Source: Candidatus Acidiferrum typicum (lineage in GTDB: Bacteria; Acidobacteriota; Terriglobia; Acidiferrales; UBA7541). From it: a stretch of 44,376 nt of DNA. Below the pieces are notes generated by a model. It searched no databases, was not told the DNA's origin, and worked only from the letters and a program-made list of their open reading frames with translations. The DNA lies in contig JAOAPV010000068.1 in assembly GCA_025463055.1 (NCBI GenBank), positions 1-44,376 on the forward strand, given 5' to 3'. A program made the translations under genes and the position numbers. Numbering within the stretch: the first letter of the stretch is position 1; each line of letters begins with the position of its first letter. Positions 1-15,331 of this stretch are shown here, piece by piece.

Positions 1-83
1 TCGTCTGATTTTGTCAAACTTTTATAGACGCAAGCGACAGCGATGGAGTTATCACCTTGACAACTTTAGGATTTGGTGGTATC

Positions 84-314
84 ATGATTATAGTTAAGCA
101 TCAGGAAGTGCGCATCTTCACTCGGCGCATGCCAGACGATTTCCCGCGTCCTGCGGGAAGCCCGTTGGTTCCTTACGATGCGGCTCGATTCAATCGAGCA
201 AACTTTTTTCAGGACAAAAAGAAAGACAAGCGCGGAGTGTGTCTAGTTGTTTGCACGCACAAAGCGCAGCATGGCGCAGCGCCGGGCGGATCGGCGCAGA
301 AAGAGCAGAAATGA
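84..314 (+). CDS. hypothetical small basic protein
   Basis: An open frame of 76 codons from ATG 84. It could extend upstream to a TTG at 57, but the region before ATG 84 is the more natural initiation context. The product is rich in Arg and Lys and matches no family I recognise. Its TGA (312-314) overlaps the ATG of the next small frame (311) in an ATGA arrangement typical of coupled translation, which is the main reason to believe it. It heads a series of three overlapping frames leading into the 616-residue protein gene. The true start may be elsewhere because the window edge is close. Confidence is low. Confidence 0.35.
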   Translation: MIIVKHQEVRIFTRRMPDDFPRPAGSPLVPYDAARFNRANFFQDKKKDKRGVCLVVCTHKAQHGAAPGGSAQKEQK

Positions 315-424
315 CTGGAATAGAAGAGTTCGTAAGAATTAGACGGGCGACGGCAAGCCTATCGAAGCGTATGCAAGGCGAGAAGACGAAAAAACCAAAT
401 GACGACCGCGCCCAGTCGATTTAG
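311..424 (+). CDS. hypothetical 37-residue protein, overlapping neighbours
   Basis: A 37-codon frame beginning at ATG 311, which overlaps the stop of the preceding frame by 4 bases, and ending at TAG 422-424, which lies 26 bases inside the next gene (ATG 399). The product is short, charged and helix-prone, starting MTGIEEFVRIRR. No family is recognised. The tight overlap on both sides is phage-like and suggests translational coupling, but the frame is short enough to be chance. Confidence 0.3.
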   Translation: MTGIEEFVRIRRATASLSKRMQGEKTKKPNDDRAQSI

Positions 425-2249
425 ATTCTGTCCGAAGCATAAGAAGCCGCTTCCATGCAAGCATTGCGAAATGATCGCGAGTGCGCCGAAGCCTGTCCAC
501 GCCGCGGCACGGCAGCAAATTCCGTGTGCAGTTGATGGATGTGGTGAAGCCTACGTTGTGCCGGTTGGCACTGTGGTGTCCAAAGACTTCAAGTTTGTTT
601 GCAAGGGTCATACACCACAGACAAAACGTGCAGGGGCTAAGGGTGTTCGTCCATCTGCGATCAGTCCCGAGGTTCGTAAACAGATCAAACAACAATTGGC
701 CGCGCCTCCTGCAATACGGGAACCACAGAATTCCGTGGAGATGGTGGAGACTTCTCAGGGAACAAAAACTGTTACTGCCGGGCCTGATGGGAGCGTCGAT
801 GTAGACGATGCCGCGGACAGCACCGATAAAAATATAAGGAAGAATACACGAGCTATACCTGGACCACCCAGAAGACAGCCTTCAAAGCAGCCTGCGTACT
901 TGAAGTCCGTCGCGCAGTCTGTTGTTAAGTCATGGGACCCGGAAGCACCGTATGGACGCGATGAAGAGAACCGTCCTATCAAAGCGATGCGAACGGACCA
1001 AGAACTAGCGGTTCAATTGCTCGCAAAAGATTGGGACGCACCCGGATCAGCAGACCCCTGCAATTGCAATCAACCTCTCTGCAAGCACTGCCATCCAGAA
1101 AACATAGTACAAACTGATGTTCTTCGGGTTGCTCCAGTGCAGATGGATATCGAGGAGGATCTTCGGAATCAATTCGGATTATCAAAACGCCTGCCTGTAA
1201 GGGTTGCGCCAAAGAAGTTCGATTACTTCCCTGAAATTCTAGGCATATCACGAGGGGCGCTCTTCTATCTCTTGTTAGATGGCATAGTGGGAACTGAAGT
1301 CGTCCGCATTGGGCCGGGGACGAAGACCAAGGTGAAGAAGACGACTCGGTTAGTCGAACAGCAAATAGCGAAGCTCACCGCAGAATTGGAAGCAGCAAGA
1401 AAAAGAATATCCGAACTGAAGCGATTGATCGCCGAATCGGAAGACATCGTTCATGGTCTAGGCAAGAAAGTCATGGATAGCCGTCGCGCTGAAAACCCGG
1501 ACGACATCCTTGACAAATCGACCCGCGAGAAATTCAAGCGCGAGGAGAAAAAGAAGATTGTTGCCTGTGAGCAGGAAAAGCGCGAGCTTGAGACTCGTTT
1601 GCGCGAATCGAACCTAGAAGACCTTCAGCAACGTTTGGCAAATTGGGGTTCGAGTCCAGATGATTACGACCATGTTGAGACGGCGGAAACGCGGGAAGTT
1701 CCTGTCATCTTTAAGGAGAAGTTTAAGGAACCTGAAGACGAGATTAAGGATACAAGTGAGGAATATAACCAGCTACGGCTGCTCCGCGTTTCAAAGACCG
1801 ATGCATACATTAGTCTGCTCAGTTCGGTGAAATACGAAGGACTGAAAAGCCTATGCCGTCGTCATCCACTGCTCAGTGCGTGGAGATATTTTGAGAATGA
1901 AATTGTGCTCCAAGCTATCGGATGGAAGTTGATTCATCCGACCAAACATGCATTTCTGAAATATCCCGAATTGAATAAATGTTTGTCTCCGTCCGATGAG
2001 GAGGATGAGTACGTTCCGGATGACACCGAGAACGCGCTGATCATCAAGACTGGTGGAGCCCAGATCGGCGCTAGTATTTACGGTGGCGGAACAACATGGG
2101 GTGGCAAACAACGATCCGTCACTAGCTTTGATAAGACCGTAGCTTATGGAAACAAGGACGCAGGGGAAGCTGCAGGGCAATTCGCGCCGCCCGGCGAGTT
2201 CTTCGGTGATGTTGACTCCGGTGACTTCGCCGAACGCTACGAAGAATGA
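399..2249 (+). CDS. hypothetical Cys-rich coiled-coil protein of the integrated element
   Basis: A 616-residue protein with no family I can name. Three Cys/His clusters look like metal-binding knuckles: CPKHKKPLPCKHC near residues 11-23, a CAVDGCG...FVCKGH ribbon-like pair near 43-71, and CNCNQPLCKHC near 222-232. The first and third share the PL(P)CKHC signature, as if duplicated. A strongly charged coiled coil rich in E, K, R and Q spans roughly residues 320-430. The C-terminus is acidic with a Gly-rich patch (GASIYGGGTTWGG). It is the largest gene at the left of the element and ends before a terminator-like hairpin at 2357. The zinc-knuckle and coiled-coil layout would fit a DNA- or protein-binding scaffold, but this is inference only. 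Codon use and composition look coding throughout. Confidence 0.8.
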   Translation: MTTAPSRFRFCPKHKKPLPCKHCEMIASAPKPVHAAARQQIPCAVDGCGEAYVVPVGTVVSKDFKFVCKGHTPQTKRAGAKGVRPSAISPEVRKQIKQQLAAPPAIREPQNSVEMVETSQGTKTVTAGPDGSVDVDDAADSTDKNIRKNTRAIPGPPRRQPSKQPAYLKSVAQSVVKSWDPEAPYGRDEENRPIKAMRTDQELAVQLLAKDWDAPGSADPCNCNQPLCKHCHPENIVQTDVLRVAPVQMDIEEDLRNQFGLSKRLPVRVAPKKFDYFPEILGISRGALFYLLLDGIVGTEVVRIGPGTKTKVKKTTRLVEQQIAKLTAELEAARKRISELKRLIAESEDIVHGLGKKVMDSRRAENPDDILDKSTREKFKREEKKKIVACEQEKRELETRLRESNLEDLQQRLANWGSSPDDYDHVETAETREVPVIFKEKFKEPEDEIKDTSEEYNQLRLLRVSKTDAYISLLSSVKYEGLKSLCRRHPLLSAWRYFENEIVLQAIGWKLIHPTKHAFLKYPELNKCLSPSDEEDEYVPDDTENALIIKTGGAQIGASIYGGGTTWGGKQRSVTSFDKTVAYGNKDAGEAAGQFAPPGEFFGDVDSGDFAERYEE

Positions 2250-2356
2250 CCTATCTCACAGAAAACAACTAGGTTGCAGCAGAACGTAGAAGCCTCTGGA
2301 AAACGTAACGTTATATATGAGGGGTAGAACCCTCTTCATCGTTCCAAAATCCTCCA

Positions 2357-2397
2357 AAGCCGGAGCGGACCTTGCATAACGCTCCGGCTTCTCTTTG
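2357..2397 (+). terminator. rho-independent terminator-like hairpin
   Basis: A perfect 10-bp inverted repeat, AAGCCGGAGC (2357-2366) and GCTCCGGCTT (2381-2390), with a 14-nt loop, followed by a short pyrimidine-rich run (CTCTTTG). It lies 108 bases after the stop of the 616-residue gene and before the HTH gene, so it probably separates two transcription units. Confidence 0.6.
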
Positions 2398-2441
2398 TGC
2401 CTGTAGAAGTTACGAAGAAATTTTTCTGTATCAGGAGTTTT

Positions 2442-3014
2442 ATGTTTGCATCGCTTTCAATTGAGTCGGCAATCTCCGCGGTGACTGCTGAACACAAATT
2501 TTCTGCGGCGTCATTGGCTGCAATTGATGGCGGCATCAGTTCGCCGACTCTGAGTAAAGTTCTCGCCGGACAAAGCAGATTGTCACCGGACAAAGAGGAA
2601 AGTTTGAAACTTACGCTGGAAGCGATCCGCCAGTTGATCGATGAGTTTCCGGTGCCGATTGATTTCAACCAGGTCGTGCGGGTGAAGCCCTTGATTGACC
2701 AGCGTCGTGCTCAAATACGTGAAAACATCGATCCAATTGTCCACAGGTGCTTGCTGATCCGCATTTCAGGAACAGGTTTCTTTTTGACGATGCGTGGCGG
2801 CGAAGTCGTTACCACTCCATCCGAAACTTTGGCCGCTGCATTCGAAAATCCCGATACAGCGAATGAAGTTATCCGCCAACTGGCGAAGCTTGGGGCGAAA
2901 GCATGGATCGATTCGTTTGGTGCGTTCCGTAGAAAAAGCACGATGTCGCACAGCTTGATGGAAGTTGGCTTCACACCGGAGCCTGCTACTGCCGCTGTTG
3001 AGGAACCGGCATGA
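2442..3014 (+). CDS. HTH-type regulator-like protein
   Basis: A 190-residue protein. ATG 2442 is chosen because AGGAG at 2433-2437 sits at proper spacing. An in-frame start further upstream would run into the preceding hairpin region. Residues about 10-60 (AISAVTAEHKFSAASLAAIDGGISSPTLSKVLAGQSRLSPDKE) resemble a Cro/C1-like helix-turn-helix with a putative recognition helix around SPTLSKVLAG. The C-terminal half is unassigned. The stop overlaps the next ATG (3011). A role as replication or lysogeny regulator is inferred from position ahead of the cold-shock and primase-like genes and is not shown by the sequence. Confidence 0.7.
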   Translation: MFASLSIESAISAVTAEHKFSAASLAAIDGGISSPTLSKVLAGQSRLSPDKEESLKLTLEAIRQLIDEFPVPIDFNQVVRVKPLIDQRRAQIRENIDPIVHRCLLIRISGTGFFLTMRGGEVVTTPSETLAAAFENPDTANEVIRQLAKLGAKAWIDSFGAFRRKSTMSHSLMEVGFTPEPATAAVEEPA

Positions 3015-3202
3015 GCGCGTCGATGATTCGGCTGGAGCTATTGAAACATTTTTGGGAGCGTAAGATGTCGGCAATCGAATTTCACAACGACCAGCATCCG
3101 CTTGATATTGGACCGCTCGGAACGACTTTGTTGTTCAAGGATGGGGTTCGAATCCTAGCGGAGCAGTTTCATAAATCATTGTATTTGAAATTTCCTGATT
3201 AA
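3011..3202 (+). CDS. hypothetical small protein, coupled to the HTH gene
   Basis: A 63-residue frame beginning at an ATG that overlaps the TGA of the HTH gene by 4 bases (ATGA). A second ATG at 3065 has GGGAG at good spacing and would give a 45-residue product starting MSAIEFHNDQ. No domain is recognised. The coupling and the GGGAG site are the support. The length keeps confidence moderate. Confidence 0.5.
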   Translation: MSASMIRLELLKHFWERKMSAIEFHNDQHPLDIGPLGTTLLFKDGVRILAEQFHKSLYLKFPD

Positions 3203-3205
3203 CTT

Positions 3206-3218
3206 TACCCCTTAGGGC
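3206..3218. promoter_or_regulatory. CCCTTAGGG-type palindrome, possible operator
   Basis: The sequence TACCCCTTAGGGC occurs here in the gap before the cold-shock gene. A close match, TACCCTTAGGGC, occurs at 5465-5476, and the reverse-oriented element TTAGGGGTATCC at 5574-5585. Recurrence of one palindromic word in two intergenic regions of the element suggests a shared protein-binding site, perhaps for the HTH protein encoded at 2442. That link is inference. Confidence 0.3.
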
Positions 3219-3287: not shown

Positions 3288-3575
3288 ATGCCCATTCGGG
3301 CAAAGGTAGAAACGAAGGTGAAAGATACAGGAATTGTAATGACGTGGTTTGAGACCAGAGGTTTTGGGTTCATCCATAGCATCGTGGACGGTGAAGTTCG
3401 TTCTTATTTCGCGCATATTTCGCAGTTTCATGGGCAGCCAAGAGTAGGGGCCACCGTTCTCTTCAACGCCGCCGCTGGTAAAGGGTCGAAAGGTCCGGTC
3501 GCACGCAATGTTGAAGTTGTAACTGAAATTCAGAAAGGGGTGGCTGCACTTGCAGCGGGCGAGGTGCGGTCATGA
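3288..3575 (+). CDS. cold-shock domain protein
   Basis: A 95-residue protein with a single-stranded nucleic-acid-binding cold-shock (OB) fold. Residues about 13-70 show the family pattern: GIVMTWFETRGFGFI corresponds to the GxVKWFN...KGFGFI strand with RNP1, and RSYFAHISQF to the RNP2 strand (VFVHxSA). The RNP1 core GFGFI is intact. Unlike housekeeping CspA proteins (about 70 residues), it has N- and C-terminal extensions. It directly precedes the primase/helicase-like gene and its TGA overlaps that ATG (3572), so the two are probably translated together. A role in handling single-stranded DNA or RNA during element replication is plausible by context. Confidence 0.82.
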   Translation: MPIRAKVETKVKDTGIVMTWFETRGFGFIHSIVDGEVRSYFAHISQFHGQPRVGATVLFNAAAGKGSKGPVARNVEVVTEIQKGVAALAAGEVRS

Positions 3576-5368
3576 GTGCCACCTCAGAGGAATTGATCCA
3601 GCAGGTCAATCAGGTGTGCCCGCCGCTGCCAATAACATTGGTCAGTGCGAATGATATTCCGGTGAGTGAAGCTTCGAAGGAAATTCCAGACGCTGAAGAG
3701 ATACGTCATCTGGAAGCTGCCAATAAAGAATTGATGAATTCGCTGGATGAATCATTAGAACTAGGTTTACACGAAGTCCCTGATGATCCGTTCGGAAAAC
3801 TTCAAGCACTGAAGTGCAACAACGAAATCTTGACAGAAGCACTGAACGCTCCTGAAGCCTTACCGTCTAAGCCCAAGTTTGGCAAGACTGACGGGCCTAT
3901 CATTTCAGTTCACGTAAAGAGCAAGCCGGAGCCAATCTGGATCGACAAGGACGGAGTAAACGTCGATACAGGCGAAAGAGTCCAGCTGCCGCCTAGCGTA
4001 ATCGAGAAACTAGATCAGGAAGGTGCGAGAAGGGCTGCGGAATGGCTTGAGAAGAGCGATGCCCCGGTTGAGCAATACAAGCATTACGCAATGACCAAGG
4101 AAGAGTTCGACCTGGAGAACGAAAAAGAATATCCAGTGCGTCCTCTTCCAAAACAGCCCGGCCCAAAGTGGGACGACTCCATTCTTTACGGGTTATCTGG
4201 AGACGTGATCCGCAAGGCGGGACAGTATTGCGAATCACATCCGGCAGGCATGCTTGTGGACTTCCTTGTTTCCATCGGCTCGATCATAGGCCGCGGGCCT
4301 TACTTCAATATTGGTGCGACTAAGCACTACACGAATGAATTCATGGCGCGTGTTGGCGACAGTTCGAAGTCTCGTAAGGGCACAGGACGCGATGCTGTCG
4401 ACGCAATCCTAAAGCTTGTTGACCCCGGCTGGCATTCAGATCGAATTGAGTCTGGATTTGGCTCGGGTGAAGCAATCATCAATCGCGTCCGTGACACGGT
4501 GATGGAGCCTCGTCGCAAGAATGGTGTGACAGTCTACGAAAGTGTTCCAGGTGTAGACGACAAACGTTTGTGTATTCGTGAAGGCGAGCTAGCGTCTATC
4601 TTTGTTCTCGCTGGCAAGCCGGACAGTCGTGCGGACATCATCATTCGTGATGGATGGGACGGCAAAACACTGCGCAACATCGTCAAAGGAAAAGGCAAGG
4701 ACGGCTCATCTAACTCTGCAAAGTGTGAAGAGCCGCATCTTTCTATCAGTGGGGACACGACTGTAAGTGAGTTGCGCATGAAAATGCCGGACGGCGCAGA
4801 CGAAAACGGATTCGGAAATCGCTTCATTTACGTCTACGTTTACCGTGTAAAGGATTGCCCGCAAGGTGGCCCCGAGATCGATTGGTCTCAGGAGATTGTG
4901 GACCTTCATCAAGTCATACAGTTTGCGAAAACGGTTAAGCATGTATCGATGACTGTTTCAGCCAGAAGGTGGTGGAATAACCATTACTCCGAATTCGAAC
5001 ATCAAGGGCCGGACGGACTGGCGGGCAAGATGACGACGAGAGCTGCAGCTCACATCCGCAGGCTGGCGATGATCTACGCTTTGCTAGACCAGGCGGACGA
5101 GATAAACCTGGATCACTTTTATGCTGCCAAGCGTCTTTGGGATTATTGCTCTGACTCAGCGATGTTCATCTTCGGGGGAGTCACCACCGAGCAACTGAGG
5201 ATCGTGAACTGGATCGGTCAGCGAGGCTCGGGGACGTATAAGCAGATTCGCGATGAGCTGTACCAGCGTCACAGGTCCGTAGTCGAGATCAAGGCCGACC
5301 TGGACGTGCTGGTCAAGCAGCGGAAGCTTCGCCTGGACGGGGAGAATTACGTGAAAATGGGGAATTGA
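3572..5368 (+). CDS. DUF3987-type primase/helicase-like replication protein
   Basis: A 598-residue protein. Residues 1 to about 190 are an acidic poorly conserved region. From about residue 195 it follows the layout of DUF3987 proteins of phages and mobile elements, which have a RecA-like fold. A Walker-A-like loop, GDSSKSRKGTG, lies near residues 261-271; the GK(S/T) order is altered to RKGTG, as in many DUF3987 members. It also contains SIFVLAGKPDSRADIIIRDGWDG and SISGDTTVSELRMKM. A winged-helix-like tail occupies residues about 545-597 (LRIVNWIGQRGSGTYKQIRDEL). It is coupled to the cold-shock gene by an ATGA overlap and followed immediately by a repeat-dense AT-rich region. Together these suggest a replication module. 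Whether the ATPase is active is unknown. Confidence 0.82.
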   Translation: MSATSEELIQQVNQVCPPLPITLVSANDIPVSEASKEIPDAEEIRHLEAANKELMNSLDESLELGLHEVPDDPFGKLQALKCNNEILTEALNAPEALPSKPKFGKTDGPIISVHVKSKPEPIWIDKDGVNVDTGERVQLPPSVIEKLDQEGARRAAEWLEKSDAPVEQYKHYAMTKEEFDLENEKEYPVRPLPKQPGPKWDDSILYGLSGDVIRKAGQYCESHPAGMLVDFLVSIGSIIGRGPYFNIGATKHYTNEFMARVGDSSKSRKGTGRDAVDAILKLVDPGWHSDRIESGFGSGEAIINRVRDTVMEPRRKNGVTVYESVPGVDDKRLCIREGELASIFVLAGKPDSRADIIIRDGWDGKTLRNIVKGKGKDGSSNSAKCEEPHLSISGDTTVSELRMKMPDGADENGFGNRFIYVYVYRVKDCPQGGPEIDWSQEIVDLHQVIQFAKTVKHVSMTVSARRWWNNHYSEFEHQGPDGLAGKMTTRAAAHIRRLAMIYALLDQADEINLDHFYAAKRLWDYCSDSAMFIFGGVTTEQLRIVNWIGQRGSGTYKQIRDELYQRHRSVVEIKADLDVLVKQRKLRLDGENYVKMGN

Positions 5369-6076: not shown

Positions 6077-6661
6077 TTACGCCGCTTGTTCCGACAGGGT
6101 TTTATGGACAAGACTTCGGCTGCAACGCAGGGTCAGGGCGATCTCGCGCATGGTCAAACCTTCCAAACGCATTGTGGCGAGCCTGGAGGCGTCGAGAACG
6201 ATAGGTTTACGGCCAACGCGGAATCCTTTGGCACGACGATTGGATATTCCAGCGCGTACCCGCTCGCGGATCAAATCCCGCTCGAATTCAGCCATCGCAG
6301 AGATGATCCCGAACATTAAGCGGCCAGCAGGCGTGGTCAGGTCCAAGGACTCCTTCAGGCTGATAAAGGCGATCCCGAGTGATTCGAATTCAGCCAGCGA
6401 ATTAACAAGGTGTTTGAGTGATCGTCCGAAGCGGTCGAGCTTCCAAACTAGGACAGCGTCAAGCTTGCGTCGATGAGCATCGGCTAAGAGTTTGTTGAGT
6501 TCTGGCCGTGAATCCTTCGATCCGCTAACGCCAACATCGACGTATTCGCCAATGATTGTCCAACCGCGTCGTTGGCAATGTTCGCGCAGTTCGCGCAGTT
6601 GCATCTCGGGATCTTGGCCCTTGTCTGATGTGGAAACCCTTGCGTACAAAGCAGTTCTCAC
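6077..6661 (-). CDS. serine recombinase (resolvase/invertase family)
   Basis: A 194-residue small serine recombinase. The catalytic domain covers residues 1 to about 140: ALYARVSTSDKGQDPEMQ with the nucleophilic Ser near residue 10, the VWKLDRFGRS active-site arginine strand, and the E-helix FGIISAMAEFERDLIRERVRAG. A C-terminal helix-turn-helix lies near residues 155-192 (LTMREIALTLRCSRSLVHKTL). Length is normal for Tn3-type resolvases and DNA invertases. The GTG start overlaps the TGA of a 41-codon frame. It could resolve dimers of a replicating form or invert a segment. No clear paired inverted target was found, although the 10-mer CCGTTAGGTT flanks the unit at 5996-6005 and 6803-6812. Confidence 0.95.
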   Translation of the reverse strand: MRTALYARVSTSDKGQDPEMQLRELREHCQRRGWTIIGEYVDVGVSGSKDSRPELNKLLADAHRRKLDAVLVWKLDRFGRSLKHLVNSLAEFESLGIAFISLKESLDLTTPAGRLMFGIISAMAEFERDLIRERVRAGISNRRAKGFRVGRKPIVLDASRLATMRLEGLTMREIALTLRCSRSLVHKTLSEQAA

Positions 6662-7146: not shown

Positions 7147-7617
7147 ATGAACACAGAAACAGCAGAATGGACTTTCACAAGCGAGCCAGTCAACATCGCG
7201 GAACTTTCATCCGACACGATTCGGAAGCTGGTGCGATTCGCGGACGTAGCGCCAGCGTATCATTTCAGCAAGCGAATAATCTGGGTGTTCGACACTGGTC
7301 CAAGTTGCTGTGTGACTTATCCGCCCGAAGTCATGATCGGCTACCTCAACGCCTTCGAGGACTTAAAGACGATCCCCGAGCCCGAAGTAAAGTTTTTCGT
7401 GGAGAATGCCGACCTGGCCACGAAGACGGAAGAGATTCAGGAGCGTAATCATAAGGCCGACCTGGCCACGAAGACGGAAGAGATTCAGGAGCGTAATCAT
7501 AAGGCCGACCGGGAACCATCTGACTGGGAATTCGAAATGGTTCGGGACGAGTGCCAGAATTTCGAACGTGAGTTAATCGTATTAGGCGAGCGCATCATGA
7601 GAACGCCGAAGCAGTAA
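7147..7617 (+). CDS. hypothetical protein with a tandem 16-residue duplication
   Basis: A 156-residue acidic, Glu-rich protein. ATG 7147 is preceded by AGAAGGAACGT, a good ribosome site. Residues about 88-119 are two identical 16-residue units (ADLATKTEEIQERNHK twice), encoded by an exact 48-bp tandem repeat and predicted to lengthen a helix or coiled coil by one unit. The N-terminal half (FTSEPVNIAELSSDTIRKLVRF...) is not recognised. It lies directly upstream of the terminase large subunit gene, with a terminator-like hairpin between. A small terminase subunit often occupies that slot and often contains helical oligomerisation segments, but no HTH is evident and I do not assign it. Confidence 0.7.
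   Translation: MNTETAEWTFTSEPVNIAELSSDTIRKLVRFADVAPAYHFSKRIIWVFDTGPSCCVTYPPEVMIGYLNAFEDLKTIPEPEVKFFVENADLATKTEEIQERNHKADLATKTEEIQERNHKADREPSDWEFEMVRDECQNFERELIVLGERIMRTPKQ
7408..7503 (+). repeat. exact 48-bp tandem duplication in frame
   Basis: Copy one is 7408-7455 and copy two 7456-7503, identical at all 48 bases and starting GCCGACCTGGCC. The third unit begins with GCCGACC and then diverges. Perfect identity including third positions implies a very recent slippage or unequal exchange, or an assembly artefact. Confidence 0.97.
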
Positions 7618-7640: not shown

Positions 7641-7672
7641 AATGCCTGGACTTGTTCCGGGCATTTCTATTT
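7641..7672 (+). terminator. terminator-like hairpin before terL
   Basis: AATGCCTGGA (7641-7650) pairs with TTCCGGGCATT (7655-7665) with one T-G wobble, followed by TCTATTTT. It separates the 156-residue gene from terL. The upstream in-frame ATG of terL at 7642 is inside this hairpin, which argues for the internal start at 7693. Confidence 0.6.
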
Positions 7673-7692
7673 TCACCTACGAGGGAGAAAGG

Positions 7693-9942
7693 ATGACCGA
7701 GCAAGAAGTCGTAACCCAGACCACAGTCGATATTGTCGAAGTCACTGCGCCAAAGAAAAAGGCGGGCAGACCAAAGAAATTAGCACCCAAAGGAACACCC
7801 GAGCGCAGGGAATATCAAAAGAAGGCCACTCAGGGAACCAGGGCACGGGCTGCTGAAGCAGAAGATCAGGCCGCGCAGCAGATCGGTTCGGATAAATCAC
7901 CCAAGGATGATGAAGCAAAGAAAATTCTCCGCGCCGAAGGAATCAAGAATCCACACGTTCAAGATGTGTTGATCGAGAATGCCAAGATAGCCGCTGTTCA
8001 CTACCAAATTCCTTATAACCGATACCTACTCAAGAACGGTCTTCGTAAGACTCTCGCGGAATTGAAGGGCGAGGCATTTGAAGCGCCCGTGATCAGCGAA
8101 GGCGAGCTAGTTGACGGCGAAATCCTTTTTAAAAAAGACCTTCACTATCTTTGGGACTTCGGATACTTCCGCCAGCCTGTAACGTTCGAACAATGGTTGG
8201 AGATTCGATTCAAGGCGAAGTCATCGGCTTTTTACTTAGGCCGAGAGATTTTGGGGATGGACTTCCACGAGTTGCATCAAGCTTGGACCGAATTCTTTCC
8301 TCAGTTCGATCCTCGTGGACTGAAGCCCTTATTCTCAATGGAAGACGCTAAGGCATGGCTGGCTCGTCAGTCCGAGAAGAAGACCTTCGTCCTTCAATGC
8401 TCCCGTAACAGCTATAAAAGTAGCTTCGCGGCGATCCTGGCTTTGACGATCATCCTTTGTCAGCCGTCAATCCGAATCCGCTTGGTTTCCGCGACCGATG
8501 ACCTTGCGTCAGATTTCGTTGCAGCTATCCGAAGATACTTCGTCATTCAGATTCCTGACTCGCCGAGTTTGTTCGTACAACTCTTTAGCGAATACTGCAT
8601 TCCGCCAGATGAAGGCCAGGAGTCGATGTATGAGTGCCCCCTCGCACATTTAAATTTGGTAGCCGCGACCTGTGAGGCGTCAAGTATTTCTTCAAAGCAA
8701 GCTGGGAGACGTGCCGATGTCTTGCTCTGTGACGATGTCCAGGAAGAAGGCTCAGTTGCAACGGACAATTTGCGCGAAAAAGGTATCACCAGATTTGACC
8801 TCCTTCAAAAATTGATCGAGGTCGGGGGTTACACAATTTCACTTTCGACGCCTTGGCATAAGAAAGACATAAGCGGCGTCTTGATTGAGAGATCGGAAAA
8901 TGATCCAAGTACTTTGACCGCGGTGCGGATCGATCCTGCGTGGGAAGTCCTTCCTCATGCCCACAACACTCCGATTCTCGAATTGAAGGAAGCCGACGTT
9001 AAGCTAGTTTTTCCTGAGCGCCTAACGTTCCAATTCCTGGTTTCGGAAGCTAGAAAGAACATCAAGCAGTTTTTGAGCCAGAACCTTTGTATCTTTCCTG
9101 ACGATGCTGATTCTTCAAAGCTCAAAGTTCACTTTGATTTGGACGTGCTCCACGGGGCTGTGCGTTCGTACGCATTCTTCGATCAAAGAAACCCCGCTTT
9201 ACAACTAGTTGGAACCTACACGGGGCTGGACTCTGCATGGAGCACGGAACGCTACGCGGACTTTTCCGCCTTGATCACTTGCAAAATCTTCAAGGAAATC
9301 AAAAGTGGCCGATTCATTATAGGCGTCACGGACATTCGTCTCTTCCAGCTTCGAATCCAGGAGTTAGCGCAAGAAGTCATCCGCTGCTTCCGCGACAACA
9401 GACCAGACAGGGTAGTGGCAGAACGTTCTGGCTCTTGGCAGTCGTTGGCCCAAGCGATAAATATTGAAGCTAGAGAACGCCAGTTGTTTCCGGCTCCAAA
9501 TATTTACTGGAAGCATGTCTCTTCGGGCGCGGGGGATAAGAAAAGCAAGGCCGCACGAATCAAATCTTTGGAGGCTCCGCTCGCTACGGGACAGTTGGTG
9601 TTCATGCAGCACCCGATGTTAGAGGAATTATTCACGCAATTTGTGAACTATACCGGGGCTCGTTCCACCCAACAAAAGAAAGACGATGGACCTGACGCAT
9701 TGGCGGCTGCCGCGGAGCAATACTTCTTCCCTTTATTCAGTAGGGTAGAAAAAACAGAAGAAGAAATTCAAATAGAAAACGACATCGCAAAGAGAAACAC
9801 GATGTGGGGTGAATATGACATGTACTTCGGGACTGCTCCGAATACAATTCCTCATTCACTCCCATCCGCGCCGCAGCCCGCGCCGACCAACCCATTGACC
9901 AGCCATTTATCGCGCTTCGGCATGGTTCGGCCCAGAGCGTAG
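7693..9942 (+). CDS. terL: phage terminase large subunit
   Basis: A 749-residue DNA-packaging motor protein with an ATPase plus nuclease layout. ATG 7693 is chosen because GGGAGAAAGG precedes it. An upstream in-frame ATG at 7642 falls in a hairpin. The N-terminus is a basic extension (PKKKAGRPKK). The Walker-A-like loop is CSRNSYKSSFA near residues 236-246, Walker B ADVLLCDDVQEE near 339-350 and the coupling motif STPWHK near 384-389. The nuclease acidic residues are seen in GLDSAW (about 511), ERSGSW (about 577) and DDGPDALAAA (about 664-673). It is longer than many TerL proteins because of the first 150 residues. It marks the element as phage-derived, yet no portal or capsid gene follows. 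Confidence 0.92.
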   Translation: MTEQEVVTQTTVDIVEVTAPKKKAGRPKKLAPKGTPERREYQKKATQGTRARAAEAEDQAAQQIGSDKSPKDDEAKKILRAEGIKNPHVQDVLIENAKIAAVHYQIPYNRYLLKNGLRKTLAELKGEAFEAPVISEGELVDGEILFKKDLHYLWDFGYFRQPVTFEQWLEIRFKAKSSAFYLGREILGMDFHELHQAWTEFFPQFDPRGLKPLFSMEDAKAWLARQSEKKTFVLQCSRNSYKSSFAAILALTIILCQPSIRIRLVSATDDLASDFVAAIRRYFVIQIPDSPSLFVQLFSEYCIPPDEGQESMYECPLAHLNLVAATCEASSISSKQAGRRADVLLCDDVQEEGSVATDNLREKGITRFDLLQKLIEVGGYTISLSTPWHKKDISGVLIERSENDPSTLTAVRIDPAWEVLPHAHNTPILELKEADVKLVFPERLTFQFLVSEARKNIKQFLSQNLCIFPDDADSSKLKVHFDLDVLHGAVRSYAFFDQRNPALQLVGTYTGLDSAWSTERYADFSALITCKIFKEIKSGRFIIGVTDIRLFQLRIQELAQEVIRCFRDNRPDRVVAERSGSWQSLAQAINIEARERQLFPAPNIYWKHVSSGAGDKKSKAARIKSLEAPLATGQLVFMQHPMLEELFTQFVNYTGARSTQQKKDDGPDALAAAAEQYFFPLFSRVEKTEEEIQIENDIAKRNTMWGEYDMYFGTAPNTIPHSLPSAPQPAPTNPLTSHLSRFGMVRPRA

Positions 9943-9949: not shown

Positions 9950-10441
9950 ATGGCCTCAAGGACACTGAGCCGCGCCTCAATGCGACGGCTTGCCAACAAC
10001 TATGATCCGAAGCCGTATCGTGTTTCCGGAACGATCCGGCGCGTGGACTTTGATCGACAGCTTGTAAAGATCACGTCAGACCAAGGGACGTACAGCGCGT
10101 TCACGAGTCGGATCAATGCACGAAATGGTCATGGATGCATCGTTCGACCGGGTGACCGTGTCACGTTCGGAGTGATTGAAGATACGAACCATGCAGTCGA
10201 TATCAACTTCGTTGATCCGCCAGATGTTCAGCTCCCTGAAGAGGAAGTTTCGCGGATCACCAGAATTGCCGAGATGATCTTCGCAAAGCGGGTTGAACCG
10301 AACTGTCGTTGCCCAATCTTCATTGGGCTCGCCAATAGTTTCCCGGAGCTTCAAGTCGGGGACAAGATTCACCACACGGTTGGTAAGGATCAAGCTGGCA
10401 AACCAATCGCGACGAACATTCGAAAGCTAGAAACCAAATAA
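9950..10441 (+). CDS. tandem cold-shock/OB-like domain protein
   Basis: A 163-residue protein starting 8 bases after terL. Residues about 21-87 (YRVSGTIRRVDFDRQLVKITSD...GDRVTFGVIEDTNHAVDINFV) have the strand pattern of a cold-shock domain, including the closing VRPGDRVTF...A.(D/N)I. The C-terminal portion, about 118-160 (CPIFIGLANSFPELQVGDKIHHTV...GKPIATNIRKLE), repeats the second half of the same fold, so it may be a degenerate double domain. The aromatic RNP residues are largely missing, so binding to nucleic acid is uncertain. It sits where portal or accessory packaging genes would be expected. The assignment rests on pattern only. Confidence 0.65.
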   Translation: MASRTLSRASMRRLANNYDPKPYRVSGTIRRVDFDRQLVKITSDQGTYSAFTSRINARNGHGCIVRPGDRVTFGVIEDTNHAVDINFVDPPDVQLPEEEVSRITRIAEMIFAKRVEPNCRCPIFIGLANSFPELQVGDKIHHTVGKDQAGKPIATNIRKLETK

Positions 10442-10450
10442 GTTTGGTTG

Positions 10451-10540: not shown

Positions 10541-11395
10541 ATGAGTAGAACGGAAATGAGATACACCCGAAACGAAATGATCGAAGCGATCCAAGCGATC
10601 TTCAAACCCCAAAATGGTTCTCGCTGGCTCGAACAATTAGATGTCGTTAATTTGGAGCAGCTAATGGACAAGTCGGCGGATGAAATCGACCTGTTCTATC
10701 GACGCTGCGCATTGTCCCAACAGAAGGCCGCAACAAACCGTCAGCGCGAGATGTTGGCTATCTTTCATTATTCTGGTTTGAAGTCTCCATCACCAAGGAA
10801 CGAAGCGGCGTTGGATCAGGTTTTTCCTGGCCCGACTTTGAGTTTGGAGAACTTCCGTAGTTATGTTCAACAGAATCCAGATGTTGCTAGACAGCGTTTC
10901 GAGTGGGCCAGTGAGCCGTTCGCCCAGGTCGAACAAGCGGCAGCAGCACGACTGGCCGGTGAAAAGCGGTTGTTTGCCGAATTCTGCCGGAAGAACAGTG
11001 TCGGCGAGAACCAAGCTAATTTCGGAATATGGCGTGAAACGCATTCTACTGCCGGATTAGCTCCAGCGTCTCAGGAGGAACTCGACCAGTGGAACCAGGA
11101 GCGAATTGAGCAGCGCAATAATTTTCTGCTCGGGGCGGACAACCAAACCCTCCGAAACATAGCTCGTCGAGAGGGAGCGGAGAGACACCACGCTGCTGTA
11201 CAGGAGGAAACAGATCGTCAGCTTCAGGCGAGTCAAGCTCGCGATGCCGCTATTGGTTTCCCTCCGCTACCTGCGGTCTGGAAAGGTGAACCGCTGGACC
11301 CTGGTTTCATTAAGGGAGCCGCCTCCGAGACACTTCGTTTATTAAATAGACGTTTTGGCGCAGCCGCTGTTAATGCTCGTCTTTGCGGGAAGTAA
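10541..11395 (+). CDS. hypothetical protein of the phage-like element
   Basis: A 284-residue protein. ATG 10541 follows a strong ribosome site (GGAGGAATTAGGAGAAAC). It is rich in Gln, Glu, Arg and Ala and predicted mostly helical (for example QVEQAAAARLAGEKRLFAEF and ERHHAAVQEETDRQLQASQA). No signal peptide, membrane segment or known domain is recognised. The helical, Gln/Ala-rich composition resembles phage scaffolding or internal virion proteins, but that is a weak resemblance and no function is assigned. It is followed 28 bases later by another unknown gene in the same direction. Confidence 0.75.
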   Translation: MSRTEMRYTRNEMIEAIQAIFKPQNGSRWLEQLDVVNLEQLMDKSADEIDLFYRRCALSQQKAATNRQREMLAIFHYSGLKSPSPRNEAALDQVFPGPTLSLENFRSYVQQNPDVARQRFEWASEPFAQVEQAAAARLAGEKRLFAEFCRKNSVGENQANFGIWRETHSTAGLAPASQEELDQWNQERIEQRNNFLLGADNQTLRNIARREGAERHHAAVQEETDRQLQASQARDAAIGFPPLPAVWKGEPLDPGFIKGAASETLRLLNRRFGAAAVNARLCGK

Positions 11396-11423: not shown

Positions 11424-12164
11424 ATGGCACGTACATCAACAGAATTTACACAAGCCGAACGAAACGCGTTCGAAGCATTCTTTGTGAAGAATCATCTGGT
11501 CATTGATGGCGCAGTCGGCCACAAGAATGGTGAAATCCTCGCTGATTTTATCGCGAATAAAATGAATTCCGATATCACTGCGGAGACCCTGGCCGCGGCG
11601 GTCAAGGTTGTGAAGGGGCTAGTGTTTAAGACGGCAGCCCAAAGAGAATTCGACACAGCAATTTCGGGAATGAGTGAAGCTGAGAAATCCGTAGTCAGCA
11701 AATGGCTAGAGCGCCAAAAGCAACTCGTGCTAGACGGCGACCCTGGCTTCGAAAACTTCTCAATCATTGTCGGTTGGCTCCGCGCTCGGAACTATCCGAT
11801 CTCGGAACAGAACCTCAATATGAGTTTGACGAACGTCATCAACAACAGTTGCCAGCGTTCCCTGCATTGGAAGGCAGCGCCAGCACACGAGGGTGGATAT
11901 GGCCGCCACAGTGGTAAGAAGTTTGACAGCAAAAATGAACCGGAAGAAGAACGCTTGTATGTCGGTGGGAGGTTGAACCACTCACATAATCCAGGGTACG
12001 CACCAAAGCCAAAAGAGACTTCAACATCAGCCGACGAAGCACGCTGGCGTCAAATGGCGGAAAATTTGCGCGCCAATACCCACAGCAGGACAGCGGAAAT
12101 ACAAAAAATCATGCGACCGACATGGCGTGAAACCTTTGAGGCGCGAAACAAAGCGTTGTCATGA
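11424..12164 (+). CDS. hypothetical protein of the phage-like element
   Basis: A 246-residue protein starting at ATG 11424 after GGAGATTAGAA. The N-terminal part (residues 1 to about 130) is helical, with a repeated style of segment, EFTQAERNAFEAFF and EFDTAISGMSEAEKSVVSKW. The C-terminal 110 residues are polar, rich in Gly, His, Asn and Glu, and probably disordered. No family is recognised. Shared composition and direction with the previous gene suggest a two-gene unit ended by the hairpins at 12245-12410. Confidence 0.75.
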   Translation: MARTSTEFTQAERNAFEAFFVKNHLVIDGAVGHKNGEILADFIANKMNSDITAETLAAAVKVVKGLVFKTAAQREFDTAISGMSEAEKSVVSKWLERQKQLVLDGDPGFENFSIIVGWLRARNYPISEQNLNMSLTNVINNSCQRSLHWKAAPAHEGGYGRHSGKKFDSKNEPEEERLYVGGRLNHSHNPGYAPKPKETSTSADEARWRQMAENLRANTHSRTAEIQKIMRPTWRETFEARNKALS

Positions 12165-12244
12165 AGCGCGGAACGTACAAGCGGAGTTGAACTCGTCAAA
12201 GTTGTTTTGGCTCGCCCCTCCATAGCGACCCAGGGCAAAGTCTG

Positions 12245-12356
12245 CCGAGATTAAACATCCAGGCGATACCGATCTAGCCTAATGGCCTGAAATCTCGGTT
12301 TCGTACCTAGTCCTGGACGATCACGGGGCTGCTCAAATTCGAATGAGCCGTGATCG
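12245..12356. other. non-coding stem-loop cluster
   Basis: Two strong dyads lie in the gene-free stretch 12165-12438: CCGAGATT (12245-12252) with AATCTCGG (12291-12298), enclosing AGGC/GCCT (12261-12264 and 12277-12280), and CGATCACGG (12318-12326) with CCGTGATCG (12348-12356), enclosing CTCA/TGAG. With the terminator at 12370 this makes three consecutive stem-loops. They could be a structured RNA, a leader or an operator cluster. I see no open frame there worth calling. Confidence 0.4.
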
Positions 12357-12369
12357 CGAGACAGCCAAG

Positions 12370-12410
12370 AGGACGTTCGTCATTGCAATGGCGGGCGTCC
12401 TTCTATTTTT
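12370..12410 (+). terminator. rho-independent terminator-like hairpin
   Basis: AGGACGTTCGTCATT pairs with AATGGCGGGCGTCCT (stem 12370-12401, about 13-15 pairs including G-T wobbles) followed by TTCTATTTTT. It lies just upstream of the glycosyltransferase gene and downstream of two unknown genes. Confidence 0.62.
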
Positions 12411-12438
12411 AGCGGCTTGAGCCGCGAAGGAGCAGTTT

Positions 12439-13056
12439 GTGGAAGTAAATATTCTAGTTGCGGTTCCATGTTTTGGCGGGCTTGTGCAAAGCAGGACGAT
12501 GGGCTCGTTGATTGAGTTGGACCGCTGGTTCTACGGAAATAAAATCGAACATACGATCTCGACTATCAGTAACGAGAGCCTCGTTACTAGGGTCCGAAAT
12601 CGTTTTGCCAGCATAGCTGCCTTCGACAGGGATTCGCAGGGGCGGCAATTCAGCCATTTGCTTTTCGTCGATGCAGACCTAGTGTTTACCGCGCAAGATG
12701 TCCTGACTATGATTTAGGCAAATAAGTCAATCATAGGACTACCTTACGTTCGCAAAGACTTGATGTGGGTATCGGTCGGGGCCGCCGCACGTGCAGGCGT
12801 CCCAGACGATATGTTGAAATATTTTGCGGGGGACGTTTGTCTGAACACCAGCAGGGCGTTGCCAATTAACGAGATCACCCAAGTCGATCAGCTAGCTGGC
12901 GGACTAATGCTCATCGAGTCGAAAGTTTTTACTGCACTAGCCGACCGATATCCAGAACGCAAATACACACTGTATGACGGCGAACTAGAATCCAAGTTCA
13001 ATCGCGGTCGGACTTTTGCGTATGAATTTTATCGAAGAATTTGCGGACCTACTTAA
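12439..13056 (+). pseudogene. glycosyltransferase-A-like gene interrupted by an in-frame amber codon
   Basis: GTG 12439 has an excellent ribosome site (AAGGAG at 12427-12432). The frame runs 92 codons to TAG 12715-12717, then stays open in the same frame for 113 more codons to 13056. Read through the TAG it is one protein of about 205 residues with a nucleotide-sugar transferase look: VAVPCFGGLVQS at the start, FVDADLVF with a DxD metal-binding motif near residues 74-81, and a downstream QLAGGLMLIESKVF segment. The amber codon falls between the DxD motif and the GLPYVRKDLMW segment, both of which are needed. It is therefore a recent nonsense mutation, a sequencing error or, less likely, a suppressed stop. 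Neighbouring genes also end in TAG, which argues against recoding. Confidence 0.72.
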
Positions 13057-13279
13057 GACCCTCATTGAAGACTGGAACGCAGCGGGGAAATCGACAGAAT
13101 CTGAAGCCGACGAGGTTATTCGGATAATCGCTCTGTCGCTTTGTGAGATCGACCCTGAATTCGGACCTTCTCTCGATTCACCTGAATTACACGATTTTGT
13201 TTTCGGGCACGAAGATGAGATCGGTTCAGCGAGTAAGCCCTTATTCGCAATGTTGAAACAGACGATGATTGTTCACTAA
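13022..13279 (+). CDS. hypothetical acidic protein
   Basis: An 85-residue frame (ATG 13022; an alternative ATG lies at 13016) overlapping the 3' end of the interrupted glycosyltransferase by about 35 bases in another frame. It is strongly acidic and helix-prone (MNFIEEFADLLKTLIEDWNAAGKS...) and stops just before a terminator hairpin at 13305, a sensible end for an operon. No Shine-Dalgarno sequence is clear and no family is recognised. Composition looks like a real protein, but the overlap keeps confidence moderate. Confidence 0.45.
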   Translation: MNFIEEFADLLKTLIEDWNAAGKSTESEADEVIRIIALSLCEIDPEFGPSLDSPELHDFVFGHEDEIGSASKPLFAMLKQTMIVH

Positions 13280-13304
13280 ATCGCAGTTGCACTTTGAAAA
13301 AGGA

Positions 13305-13348
13305 AAACCCCGACTGTGGATTGATCGCAGCCGGGGTTTCTGCTTTTT
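13305..13348 (+). terminator. rho-independent terminator
   Basis: AAACCCCG (13305-13312) and CGGGGTTT (13332-13339), with an inner CTG/CAG pairing, followed by CTGCTTTTT. It ends the left-to-right gene series of the element before the integration module. Confidence 0.68.
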
Positions 13349-13421
13349 GGTTTCGCTATTTGAATACGCCGAGAAAGCAGAAATAGGTCGAAAGTTCCGA
13401 GCACCGAAAGATCGGCCCCTC

Positions 13422-13661
13422 GCAAACTCGAATTTCGCTTGCAAACTCGACGAAATGCTAGTACTATTACTAGGTAAGCCAGCATCTCCCCGATGCATCT
13501 GTTAGTACCGCGCCAGGGCTTGCGATTCGCGCAACTGTTCGGAACATCAGAATTCCTTACAGGGTTCATAAAGGTAGCCAGCGGGCCGAAGATAACACGC
13601 CCCATTCCATAAACTGGCAAGTCAGTCTTCGTGATTCCCTCACTGACACTTCTGAATCACG
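13422..13661. promoter_or_regulatory. repeat-rich control region upstream of the excisionase gene
   Basis: The gene-free stretch 13349-13688 contains a 10-bp direct repeat GCAAACTCGA (13422-13431 and 13441-13450). It also has an inverted repeat CTAGTA-ctat-TACTAG (13458-13473) and two interleaved dyads, GTCAGT/ACTGAC (13621-13626, 13642-13647) and CGTGATTC/GAATCACG (13630-13637, 13654-13661). Such arrays upstream of xis/int genes often bind excisionase, integrase arms or a repressor. This role is inferred from position. Confidence 0.35.
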
Positions 13662-13688
13662 GCGCACAACTGCGCTTTAATTCTGGAT

Positions 13689-13997
13689 GTGTCTGTGGCC
13701 CCACAAAAGAATGCCCCAACAGTTCCCGCAGTAGACGGCGCGATCCCGCCCGAAAATCTCATTCCGATTGAAGAACTGGCGAAGCGTCTTCATACGGACG
13801 AGACATGGGTGCGAGAAAAATGCCGCCGTCGCTGTCCGAACCCGATTCCAGTCCATAATTTGGGCCGTCATCTACTTTTTGATTGGGTTCAAGTTTCGGA
13901 ATGGATTCGCAACAGTCCTAGACCAATCCATGCACCTCACCGTCGTCGGACGAGGAAACAAATTGAGAACGACAACAAGTTGAAGGTGGCAGCGTAG
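13689..13997 (+). CDS. excisionase-like MerR/HTH_17 DNA-binding protein
   Basis: A 102-residue protein with GTG start at 13689 (GTG 13695 is possible). Residues about 25-75 follow the helix-turn-helix excisionase pattern: LIPIEELAKRLHTDETWVREKCRR with the recognition helix, then the wing NLGRHLLFDWVQVSEWIRN. The basic tail (HRRRTRKQIE) follows. It faces the integrase gene convergently, with their stops only 17 bases apart. It probably directs integrase toward excision of the element, or represses its genes. Confidence 0.8.
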   Translation: MSVAPQKNAPTVPAVDGAIPPENLIPIEELAKRLHTDETWVREKCRRRCPNPIPVHNLGRHLLFDWVQVSEWIRNSPRPIHAPHRRRTRKQIENDNKLKVAA

Positions 13998-14013
13998 GGA
14001 AGGGAAGTGCCCT

Positions 14014-15186
14014 TTATGCTTGCTGCCTCGCTTTCTTTTCGATTGCCTTGTACTCCGTTTCGACCTTCTCCAGCGCAGCACGCATGCGCTCCAGAGACGG
14101 TTTGATGTAGTGCCGACCAGCCACGCTCTTAGAGGACTTGGTGGAGTGGCGCAGGATGTGGCTGATAGTCAATTCAGGAATCTCCAGATCATGAAGTACC
14201 GTGGACAATCCACGGCGGAATGCGTGCAACCCGTGCCACTCCACGCCAGCTTTCTTCGCCTTGGGAATCACGACATCCCACACCAGATGACCGAAGTTAA
14301 TCGGACGCTCCGGGCCATTAGGAGCATGGAAGATGTATCCCGTTCCAGTGTTTCTCTCCAGATGCGCATCGAGATACTTCTTCACAATCCCGATCACTGG
14401 CACCGGAGCCTTGCTGCTTGTTGTCTTCGTATCCTCGACCAGTTTGCCGTGTACGATGGTGCGTTTGATGTTCAGAACTCCCTTCTCGCGGTCGTAATCA
14501 GCCCACCGAAGCCCCTTCAATTCTTCCGAGCGTATACCAGTGAACGTTAAGACCATGAAGGCAGCTTGTGCCGTATGATTGTCAACGGCAGTCATCAAAT
14601 CATGAACTTCTTCGAGAGTATAAGCGTGCGTATCGGCCTCGTTGCCTCCGATGCTGTTCGCAGCAGTGACGGGGTTAAAGTCGATCAGTCCAGAACCGAC
14701 AGCCGAGCGAAACGCTCCGCTCAGGAAATTCTTGATGTTGTTGTAAGCACTCTGAGCACGGACGGTATCGCCGTCGTCTTCAATCAGTGCGTCGAATATT
14801 CTGTTGATGTCAGGAGTTCTAACCTGTCGAAGCTGCATGTCGGGGATGAAGTCCGTGATGACGTTATAATCCCGCTTGTAGCTTTCAATCGTGACATCGC
14901 GGAGCTTCCGGCGAGTCTTGCTGCCAACACCAGCGGCCAAGTAGGATTCGAGGTAGGACTTAACAGAATCAGCAGACTGGCCCTGTCCCTGACCGATGTT
15001 GACTCGCGCCAGTTCCAAGTCAGCCAGTGCTTGCACGTCGCCTGGCACCGCGCCACCTTCGTTGTGGCGAACTTGCCGGAGTTTCTTGTAAGAGTCTACG
15101 CGCTTCTTAACGCCGCCCTTCTGGACCCACTCCCGTACCTTCAGAATCCACCACCGACCGTTGACCCTGATATGTCCGCTTTGCAT
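14014..15186 (-). CDS. int: tyrosine site-specific recombinase (integrase)
   Basis: A 390-residue phage-type integrase. The open frame continues 27 codons further to 15267, but the extra residues look non-coding and run towards the tRNA fragment, so ATG 15186 (MQSGHIRVNGRWW) is preferred. An N-terminal arm-binding and SAM-like core-binding part is followed by the catalytic domain with FTGIRSEELKGLRW (first Arg), HAFRRGLSTVL (HxxR) and GRHYIKPSLERM with the nucleophilic Tyr near the C-terminus. It lies beside a 3' tRNA-Cys fragment, the expected product of integration into that tRNA gene. Together with the convergent excisionase-like gene it forms the integration module of the element. Confidence 0.95.
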   Translation of the reverse strand: MQSGHIRVNGRWWILKVREWVQKGGVKKRVDSYKKLRQVRHNEGGAVPGDVQALADLELARVNIGQGQGQSADSVKSYLESYLAAGVGSKTRRKLRDVTIESYKRDYNVITDFIPDMQLRQVRTPDINRIFDALIEDDGDTVRAQSAYNNIKNFLSGAFRSAVGSGLIDFNPVTAANSIGGNEADTHAYTLEEVHDLMTAVDNHTAQAAFMVLTFTGIRSEELKGLRWADYDREKGVLNIKRTIVHGKLVEDTKTTSSKAPVPVIGIVKKYLDAHLERNTGTGYIFHAPNGPERPINFGHLVWDVVIPKAKKAGVEWHGLHAFRRGLSTVLHDLEIPELTISHILRHSTKSSKSVAGRHYIKPSLERMRAALEKVETEYKAIEKKARQQA

Positions 15187-15282
15187 TGGCTGGCCTCTAT
15201 ACCCAATATACTGCGATGTGGGTACTGAATGGGTATAACAATTAGAACCAGCCAAGCAGGCGTGCATTTCTATGGGCTTGAC

Positions 15283-15331
15283 AAGGTCTGCAAAACCTTT
15301 ATCGGCGGTTCGATTCCGCCCCGCGCCTCCA
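15283..15331 (+). other. tRNA-Cys(GCA) 3' fragment, element attachment site (attR-like)
   Basis: This stretch has the 3' two-thirds of a tRNA. An anticodon stem AAGGT/ACCTT encloses the loop CTGCAAA (anticodon GCA, Cys). A 4-base variable region, a perfect 5-bp T-arm (GGCGG-TTCGATT-CCGCC), the acceptor strand CCGCGCC, discriminator T and encoded CCA follow. The 5' side does not form a D-arm. GGCGTGC at 15259 can pair 6 of 7 with the acceptor strand, but only 17 bases remain before the anticodon stem, too few for a normal D region. This is the duplicated 3' end left by integration. The intact tRNA-Cys should lie beyond the left window edge. Confidence 0.8.

Follow-up and report, generated by a model that had tools for sequence, protein, structure and literature searches.

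The first 15,331 bases of a contig of Candidatus Acidiferrum typicum (44,376 bases, the whole contig of its source genome, also labelled G000:C65 and referred to here as the window) hold the right part of a phage-derived element with a terminase gene. We consider it moderately probable, judging from sequence comparisons, that this capsid-less element belongs to a small family within the genus and works as a phage satellite. The comparisons suggest that virus-like elements in several soil acidobacteria have kept a packaging motor, have no detected head genes, and travel in the heads of other viruses. The elements are inserted in tRNA genes or at a defined intergenic site and have in common a predicted integrase type, a predicted replication protein, an AlpA-like gene, and an intact large terminase subunit (TerL), and no portal or major capsid gene was detected in the three relatives for which boundaries could be set. 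The initial annotation of this DNA had reported a terL gene with no recognisable capsid, portal, or tail genes and offered a defective prophage, a packaging-hijacking satellite, or part of a larger prophage as possible readings. Its observation is confirmed and its interpretation is partly supported, the satellite being the reading we favour.

Insertion at a tRNA-Cys gene

On its right side, the element ends in the 3' half of a tRNA-Cys gene, a fragment that matches the intact gene in the sister genome G034 at 100% identity over 50 nt. The likely attachment core, AGGTCTGCAAAACCT, lies at 15284-15298, and ARAGORN finds no whole tRNA gene in the window. In G034, the intact tRNA-Cys gene adjoins a gene whose product is 89.9% identical to the sensor kinase of the window; this is the empty site. 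Because the sister genome has the tRNA gene intact beside the same flanking gene, insertion at tRNA-Cys is evident, as the initial annotation had proposed for what it called the right arm. The GC content is 0.509 in bases 1-15331 compared with 0.583 from position 16860 onward. Furthermore, candidates for this second type of tRNA-Cys gene were found at 14 places in sister genomes, and all 13 of those read contain an intact tRNA-Cys(GCA). A rhodanese gene lies on the other side of the tRNA gene at 9 of these 13 loci and should therefore be the missing left flank of the window element. As the window is a complete contig that starts within the element, the latter is cut at the contig start and its left end lies beyond base 1. 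Sequence to the left of base 1, to which the initial annotation had looked for a decision, was sought and not found: a DNA search of the same genome for the flank expected from G034 (rhodanese, TolC) yielded only a 72% match over 114 bases on contig C10, and tblastn against 86 stretches of that genome (partly overlapping, 1,165,624 bases out of 5.33 Mb) returned only the same match.

From left to right, the element encodes a 616-aa protein, a 205-aa protein, a cold-shock protein, a DUF3987 primase, a serine recombinase on the opposite strand, a 156-aa protein, and TerL, followed by four genes without a confident family (one of them broken), the AlpA-like gene, and a left-facing tyrosine integrase gene (Table 1). 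The integrase, xis-like gene, replication module, and terL of the initial annotation are all supported, either by Pfam and PHROG matches or, for the xis-like protein, by a homologue in a further element described below (C7). Site-specific integration with an own integrase, a regulator, and a replication gene, as required of a satellite, is found in the window as well as in its relatives.

Several other observations concern the tRNA-Cys loci. An intact tRNA-Cys gene on contig C6, the only whole tRNA-Cys match found in the same genome, was rejected as a partner of the 3' half, since ordinary host genes on both sides mark it as a different tRNA-Cys gene. A 22-bp match on contig C85 was also set aside after no att-like or tRNA structure was noticed in the 501 bases read. 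In the window, a 460-aa gene (15465-16847) separates the tRNA-Cys remnant from the sensor kinase gene, whereas the kinase gene of G034 ends 16 bp from the intact tRNA; the 460-aa gene could have been inserted independently or belong to an older insertion. As a query for empty sites it gave only partial matches. In addition, partial tRNA-Cys copies occur near the intact first tRNA-Cys gene in G019:C329, G012:C129, G023:C6, G032:C376, and G018:C311, among others, and this first locus looks like a repeated insertion site in several sister genomes.

Relatives and the search for head genes

Full-length relatives of the window TerL are encoded in only 2 other genomes (G006 and G024) of the 36 in the genus, in both cases near the same type of integrase, which is 42% and 48% identical, respectively, to that of the window. 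The integrase type itself occurs in 4 of the 36 genomes, including the three with this TerL, where it is found beside terL. The fourth copy (G019:C245:502-1653, E 2.1e-58, with two stops read through) lies near a contig start, and no TerL was found by hidden Markov model (HMM) in the 12 kb read around it. At higher taxonomic levels, a TerL of this type was detected in 3 of 89 genomes of the family, 3 of 95 of the order, and, at E <= 1e-20, 4 of 399 of the class, the fourth being a distant full prophage; the TerL on contig C7 of G024 was found as well.

The element of G006 is located between korA and sdhC and is flanked by a 13-bp repeat, and the uninterrupted core region is present in G009 and G012, the only two genomes with korA beside sdhC among the 27 sdhC loci fetched. 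Together, the repeat and the uninterrupted sites delimit a complete element of 18,425 bp, in which the longest reading frame besides those for primase, TerL, and integrase is 277 aa. The initial annotation had regarded a total size under about 25 kb without capsid genes as support for a satellite, and this complete relative, with its terL, is only 18.4 kb long. The G024 element measures 38.6 kb and splits a tRNA-Arg gene, with a 14-bp core and an intact tRNA-Arg inside; because another partial tRNA lies close to its end, it could consist of several stacked insertions. It has 27 kb on the far side of its primase gene, and its open reading frames (ORFs) match models for restriction-modification and other defence systems. 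Defence genes are frequent on satellites. The portion of PMC9122126 available to us likewise has the defence cargo of satellites as its theme. A second G024 element, C7, occupies about 35.5 kb at a tRNA-Met gene, with repeats of 14 to 19 bp near both ends, and encodes a more distant TerL plus an intact version of the gene found broken in the window. Four insertion sites are therefore represented: tRNA-Cys (window), korA-sdhC (G006), tRNA-Arg (G024), and tRNA-Met (C7).

Intact tRNAs of the same type as the interrupted tRNA are found just inside two element ends (G024:C2:287606-287682 and G024:C7:49796-49872), and further partial tRNA copies suggest stacked insertions. In 3 of the 4 elements there is also a second, shorter gene for a tyrosine recombinase, of about 180-220 aa. 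The G024 element (L036:16671-17138 region) includes one ORF matching a NikA-like mobilisation family (2.1e-9) and another matching Peptidase_M41 (3e-6), C7 has a prepilin-like gene (G024:C7:75219-76351, N_methyl 2.2e-9) and a gene for an ATP-dependent DNA ligase (82355-83422), and a collagen-like repeat protein (L035:15196-15879, Pfam Collagen 1.9e-5) is encoded behind the post-terL genes of the G006 element.

Ten window proteins were scanned against Pfam and PHROGs at E <= 1 and yielded no portal, capsid, or tail family, in agreement with the initial annotation. For the relatives, non-overlapping ORFs above size limits were scanned (34 in G006, 33 + 33 in G024, and 55 in C7), with PHROGs applied to all of them and Pfam to G006 and to the half of G024 that contains TerL. 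The named families among the matches listed include integrases, primases, terminase, regulators, methyltransferases, a ligase, an HNH endonuclease, a pilin, and CSD (cold-shock domain), with no portal, capsid, or tail family among them. As a control, PHROGs identified the portal in all four related phages and the capsid protein in three (that of L038 was missed). HMMs derived from these four phages found each left-out portal, capsid protein, gp4 (defined below), and TerL in 4 of 4 cases. Among 721 ORFs of the four elements, including the available part of the window copy, the same HMM set recovered all four TerL, and the best portal and capsid values were E 0.076 and 1.4, respectively. HMM searches for head genes, the other check named by the initial annotation, are thus negative for portal and capsid proteins in the relatives. 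It is also evident that the longest other frame of the G006 element is too short for the portal (689-710 aa) or capsid protein (337-345 aa) of the related phages.

Two alternatives bear directly upon these results. According to the first, the window is part of an ordinary prophage whose head and tail module is located left of base 1, beyond the contig. This would be compatible with the failure to find the left end and with the 27 kb on the far side of the G024 primase. However, no head module was detected before or after terL in any of the three bounded relatives, and portal and capsid genes lie directly behind terL in the related phages, whereas other genes fill that place here. A larger prophage, one of the readings offered initially, is consequently improbable given a complete 18.4-kb relative with terL and no detected head genes, although the window copy may be such a case. 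The second alternative, to which we assign a very low probability, is that the elements are complete phages with a head made of unassigned proteins and too novel to recognise. Most post-terL proteins indeed have no family, and PHROGs overlook the capsid protein of a related phage (L038). However, the remaining frames of the G006 element do not exceed 277 aa, TerL is close to that of phages whose left-out portals and capsid proteins are recovered by HMMs, and tail and lysis families are also absent from the matches listed.

The terminase and the genes behind it

A profile of five TerL sequences matches two solved terminases in the PDB (8dgc and the maturase 4bij). The window TerL shares 34-36% identity with those of the G006 and G024 elements, aligned over its length, and the signature positions, which we take to be Walker A, Walker B, and the nuclease, are invariant. 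A structure model (mean pLDDT 51.5) matches terminases as well as RuvC-type nucleases and adds little beyond the PDB profile matches. It is conceivable that TerL has been recruited for a role other than packaging, such as DNA processing in defence or transfer, and no other packaging gene was recognised. Since ATPase and nuclease positions are both kept and the gene set around terL is typical of satellites, we consider such a role highly improbable.

In a TerL tree of eight rows without an outgroup, the proteins of the window, G006, and G024 group in a single clade with 100/100 support, nearest to phage L038. The TerL of C7, a long branch, falls with other phages, in which case the capsid-less state needs two changes; two origins of this state are likely on the basis of this tree. 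Unlike the TerL of phages L038 and L039, the three proteins of this clade carry an additional N-terminal part of roughly 90 residues. Its assignment as a DNA-binding domain was considered and dropped, because the model is too uncertain for that call. Single queries of IMG/VR (window TerL, the protein at 10541, the integrase, the C7 TerL, and a primase pair) returned no relative. With a TerL alignment, six contigs (L037 to L042) were found, five of which were read: L038, L039, and L042 have portal and capsid genes after terL, and L037 and L040 break off after terL. With an integrase alignment, there were nine, none with this TerL in the stretch read.

The main rival to the satellite reading is that the elements are decaying prophages, in which portal, capsid, and tail genes were lost, mobility is gone, and terL lingers. 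We regard this scenario as unlikely. The in-frame stop in gene 12439-13056 is consistent with it and indicates some decay of the window copy. Likewise, C7 keeps homologues of two genes from the phage head region (gp4-like and gp11-like), and a large share of each element is unassigned. However, simple decay does not readily explain why TerL, at 34-36% identity and without the rest of the head set, is open together with the integrase and AlpA-like genes in three species and at three sites, nor why a second TerL lineage also keeps terL with head genes missing. The attachment repeats and empty site are also clean.

In the phages with related TerL (L038, L039, Tunturi_3, and G333), the gene order is terL, portal, gp4, capsid, with small genes between in some. 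The label gp4 denotes the gene between portal and capsid, which is annotated as hypothetical in Tunturi_3 and receives no function from PHROGs. Scaffold genes often lie at this position. An HMM of the four phage gp4 proteins gives its two best ranks to C7 genes immediately behind terL (3.3e-7 and 5.9e-7) and the next one to the window gene 11424-12164 (0.039), for which a domain HMM including one C7 seed gives E 0.0011. When the gp4 profile was aligned (hhalign) with 163 ORFs of >= 120 aa, the top four were C7 67934, C7 68440, G024 253791, and G006 38302, each of which is one of the first three genes behind terL; G024 253338 ranked eighth, window 10541 eleventh, and window 11424 outside the top 15. 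Window 10541 and G006 38302 have a common C-terminal end (blastp 0.018, phmmer 0.076), and C7 also contains a gp11-like gene (5.3e-13 to Tunturi_3). A structure model of 10541-11395 (pLDDT 45) was useless for comparison. As a lead, the post-terL genes may resemble the gene at the scaffold position; it is the agreement in position across elements that counts, the single values being weak. A putative gp4 link fits a satellite that uses heads and equally a prophage that lost portal and capsid.

Two gene assignments of the initial annotation have to be revised. The protein immediately after terL had been called CSD-like, and its match is below the cut-off (E 0.02), a CSD gene that passes the cut-off being located at 3288-3575, with a homologue before the primase gene in the G024 element (6.5e-6). 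For the proposed glycosyltransferase (12439-13056), Pfam gives no match, and an in-frame stop divides the gene into two pieces that are 57% and 37% identical to the C7 gene (blastp), which itself has no PDB match. Homologues of the AlpA-like protein are encoded by each of the other three elements (E 2e-10 for the HTH_17 protein of C7, 6.3e-9, and 0.0046). PDB searches with 9950-10441, the C7 homologue of 12439-13056, and the primase gave nothing useful, and tblastn of the proteins at 10541, 11424, and 399 in 50,697 phage records gave no match.

Table 1. Features of the window and short recombinase genes of the related elements
Feature	Position	Strand	Basis
Integrated element, right part	1..15331		GC shift, att remnant, and empty site in G034
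616-aa protein, Cys/His clusters and coiled-coil regions	399..2249	+	ORF; Pfam/PHROG nothing above chance level
205-aa protein, possible regulator (weak)	2397..3014	+	PHROG repressor family, E 0.1
Cold-shock-domain protein	3288..3575	+	Pfam CSD 2e-6, above cut-off
DUF3987 primase/helicase	3572..5368	+	Pfam DUF3987 1.4e-9; PHROG DNA primase 5e-8
Serine recombinase, resolvase/invertase type	6077..6661	-	Pfam Resolvase 6.9e-49
156-aa protein upstream of terL	7147..7617	+	ORF; no Pfam/PHROG family at E <= 1
Large terminase subunit TerL	7642..9942	+	phrog_38 5e-43; PDB terminases; alignments
163-aa protein, possible CSD-like fold (weak)	9950..10441	+	CSD E 0.02, below cut-off
284-aa protein, predicted to be mostly helical	10541..11395	+	C-terminal end in common with G006 gene at same place
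246-aa protein, candidate scaffold-like domain (weak)	11424..12164	+	gp4 HMM E 0.039; domain HMM E 0.0011
Broken gene; glycosyltransferase only by eye	12439..13056	+	Homologous to intact 258-aa gene of C7 element
AlpA/excisionase-like helix-turn-helix (xis-like) protein	13689..13997	+	HTH_17 E 0.0057, below curated cut-off
Tyrosine integrase	14014..15267	-	Pfam Phage_integrase 2.9e-10
tRNA-Cys 3' half (interrupted gene)	15284..15331	+	Second tRNA-Cys gene type
Host sensor kinase, anchor for empty site, outside element	16860..18626	-	89.9% identical protein in G034
Short recombinase copies	G006:C148:34344-35009, G024:C2:265817-266359, G024:C7:59428-60045

Known satellites and a possible packaging route

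The elements resemble phage-inducible chromosomal islands (PICIs) and Staphylococcus aureus pathogenicity islands (SaPIs) in having an integrase, an AlpA-like gene, a primase, cargo genes, and no capsid genes. However, PICIs redirect the terminase of the helper via a small terminase subunit (TerS), an adaptor such as Rpp, or cos sites, as stated in the available part of PMC10690885, whereas the elements here have their own TerL. Capsid-forming PICIs (cf-PICIs) and the Streptomyces satellites Mulch and Flayer also encode TerL, but do so together with portal and capsid proteins (same part of PMC10690885). Of the capsid, portal, TerL, and TerS that characterise cf-PICIs, only TerL was detected in the bounded relatives. 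Phage-inducible chromosomal minimalist islands (PICMIs) have an integrase, an AlpA-type regulator, and a DUF3987-type primase as well, and the accessible text of PMC10803314 describes them as adjacent to fis, with no packaging-redirection gene found and no capsid remodelling gene known. In contrast, none of our four sites is beside fis, the elements being located at tRNAs or korA-sdhC and including terL. P4-like satellites are similarly integrated, phage-dependent for heads, and equipped with defence cargo, but P4 uses Sid and the P2 terminase (PMC10690885, in part). Families of the Sid, Psu, Delta, or alpha type were not among the matches listed in our general scans, which included no dedicated search for them. 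Lastly, Tunturi_3 and related Acidobacteriota podoviruses have a related TerL (22.6% over 66% of the protein), and gp4 and gp11 of Tunturi_3 have homologues in C7. In this case, the distinction is that Tunturi_3 forms complete virions with portal and capsid; it is a podovirus of 97.6 kb with a 76.7 nm head, the latter as given in the consulted portion of PMC11924767. Neither the portal nor the major capsid protein of a complete temperate caudovirus was detected in the three bounded relatives or in the right part of the window element.

Under the satellite reading, phage infection or prophage induction would lead to excision by the integrase and the AlpA-like protein, and the element would replicate by means of its own primase. 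Its own TerL would subsequently dock on the portal of the helper's procapsid and pump the element DNA in. The products of the post-terL genes may direct the assembly of helper heads or the docking of TerL, much like Sid in P4; the Cpm proteins of SaPIs steer head assembly in a comparable manner. We tentatively extend this to a terminase-led type of satellite, with an own motor and scaffold-like proteins and neither portal nor capsid, in which TerL may drive the element DNA into podovirus helper procapsids. Such a type, which we can propose only as a possibility, would have arisen at least twice in one genus, and the N-terminal part of TerL in one clade could pick the element DNA in place of a small terminase.

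Several points weigh against the satellite reading. We infer packaging, excision, and a helper solely from sequences, and the search for a helper, made in 1.17 Mb of the same genome, gave just recombinase matches. No TerS or Rpp-type adaptor was among the PHROG and Pfam matches listed, with unassigned genes remaining. The PHROG matches listed for G006 represent 25 of 62 families, and several of the PHROGs matched in G024 and C7 are families of no known function. Moreover, for proteins of the window, G006, and G024 the gp4 link is weak (hhalign values of 0.0046 at best), and the domain HMM ranks some antisense or unrelated, chance-looking ORFs above G006 38302. Lastly, one gene of the window copy is interrupted by an in-frame stop, and the left end of this copy is missing.

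Open-licence titles and abstract openings in the literature revealed no TerL-bearing satellite without a capsid, which is weak evidence of novelty. Satellites have been proposed in other soil bacteria according to the accessible part of a review (PMC11389934), which also takes a terminase gene to suggest mobilisation by phages. The word "satellite" does not occur in the available portion of the paper on the Tunturi viruses of this phylum (PMC11924767). The satellite families described so far, at least in the consulted part of PMC10690885, use either the helper terminase (P4, PICIs) or a TerL with head genes (cf-PICIs, Streptomyces satellites). If the reading presented here is true, satellites would come into view in the Acidobacteriota, and the motor itself would be their handle on the helper, with the fit between portal and motor setting which phage could be used.

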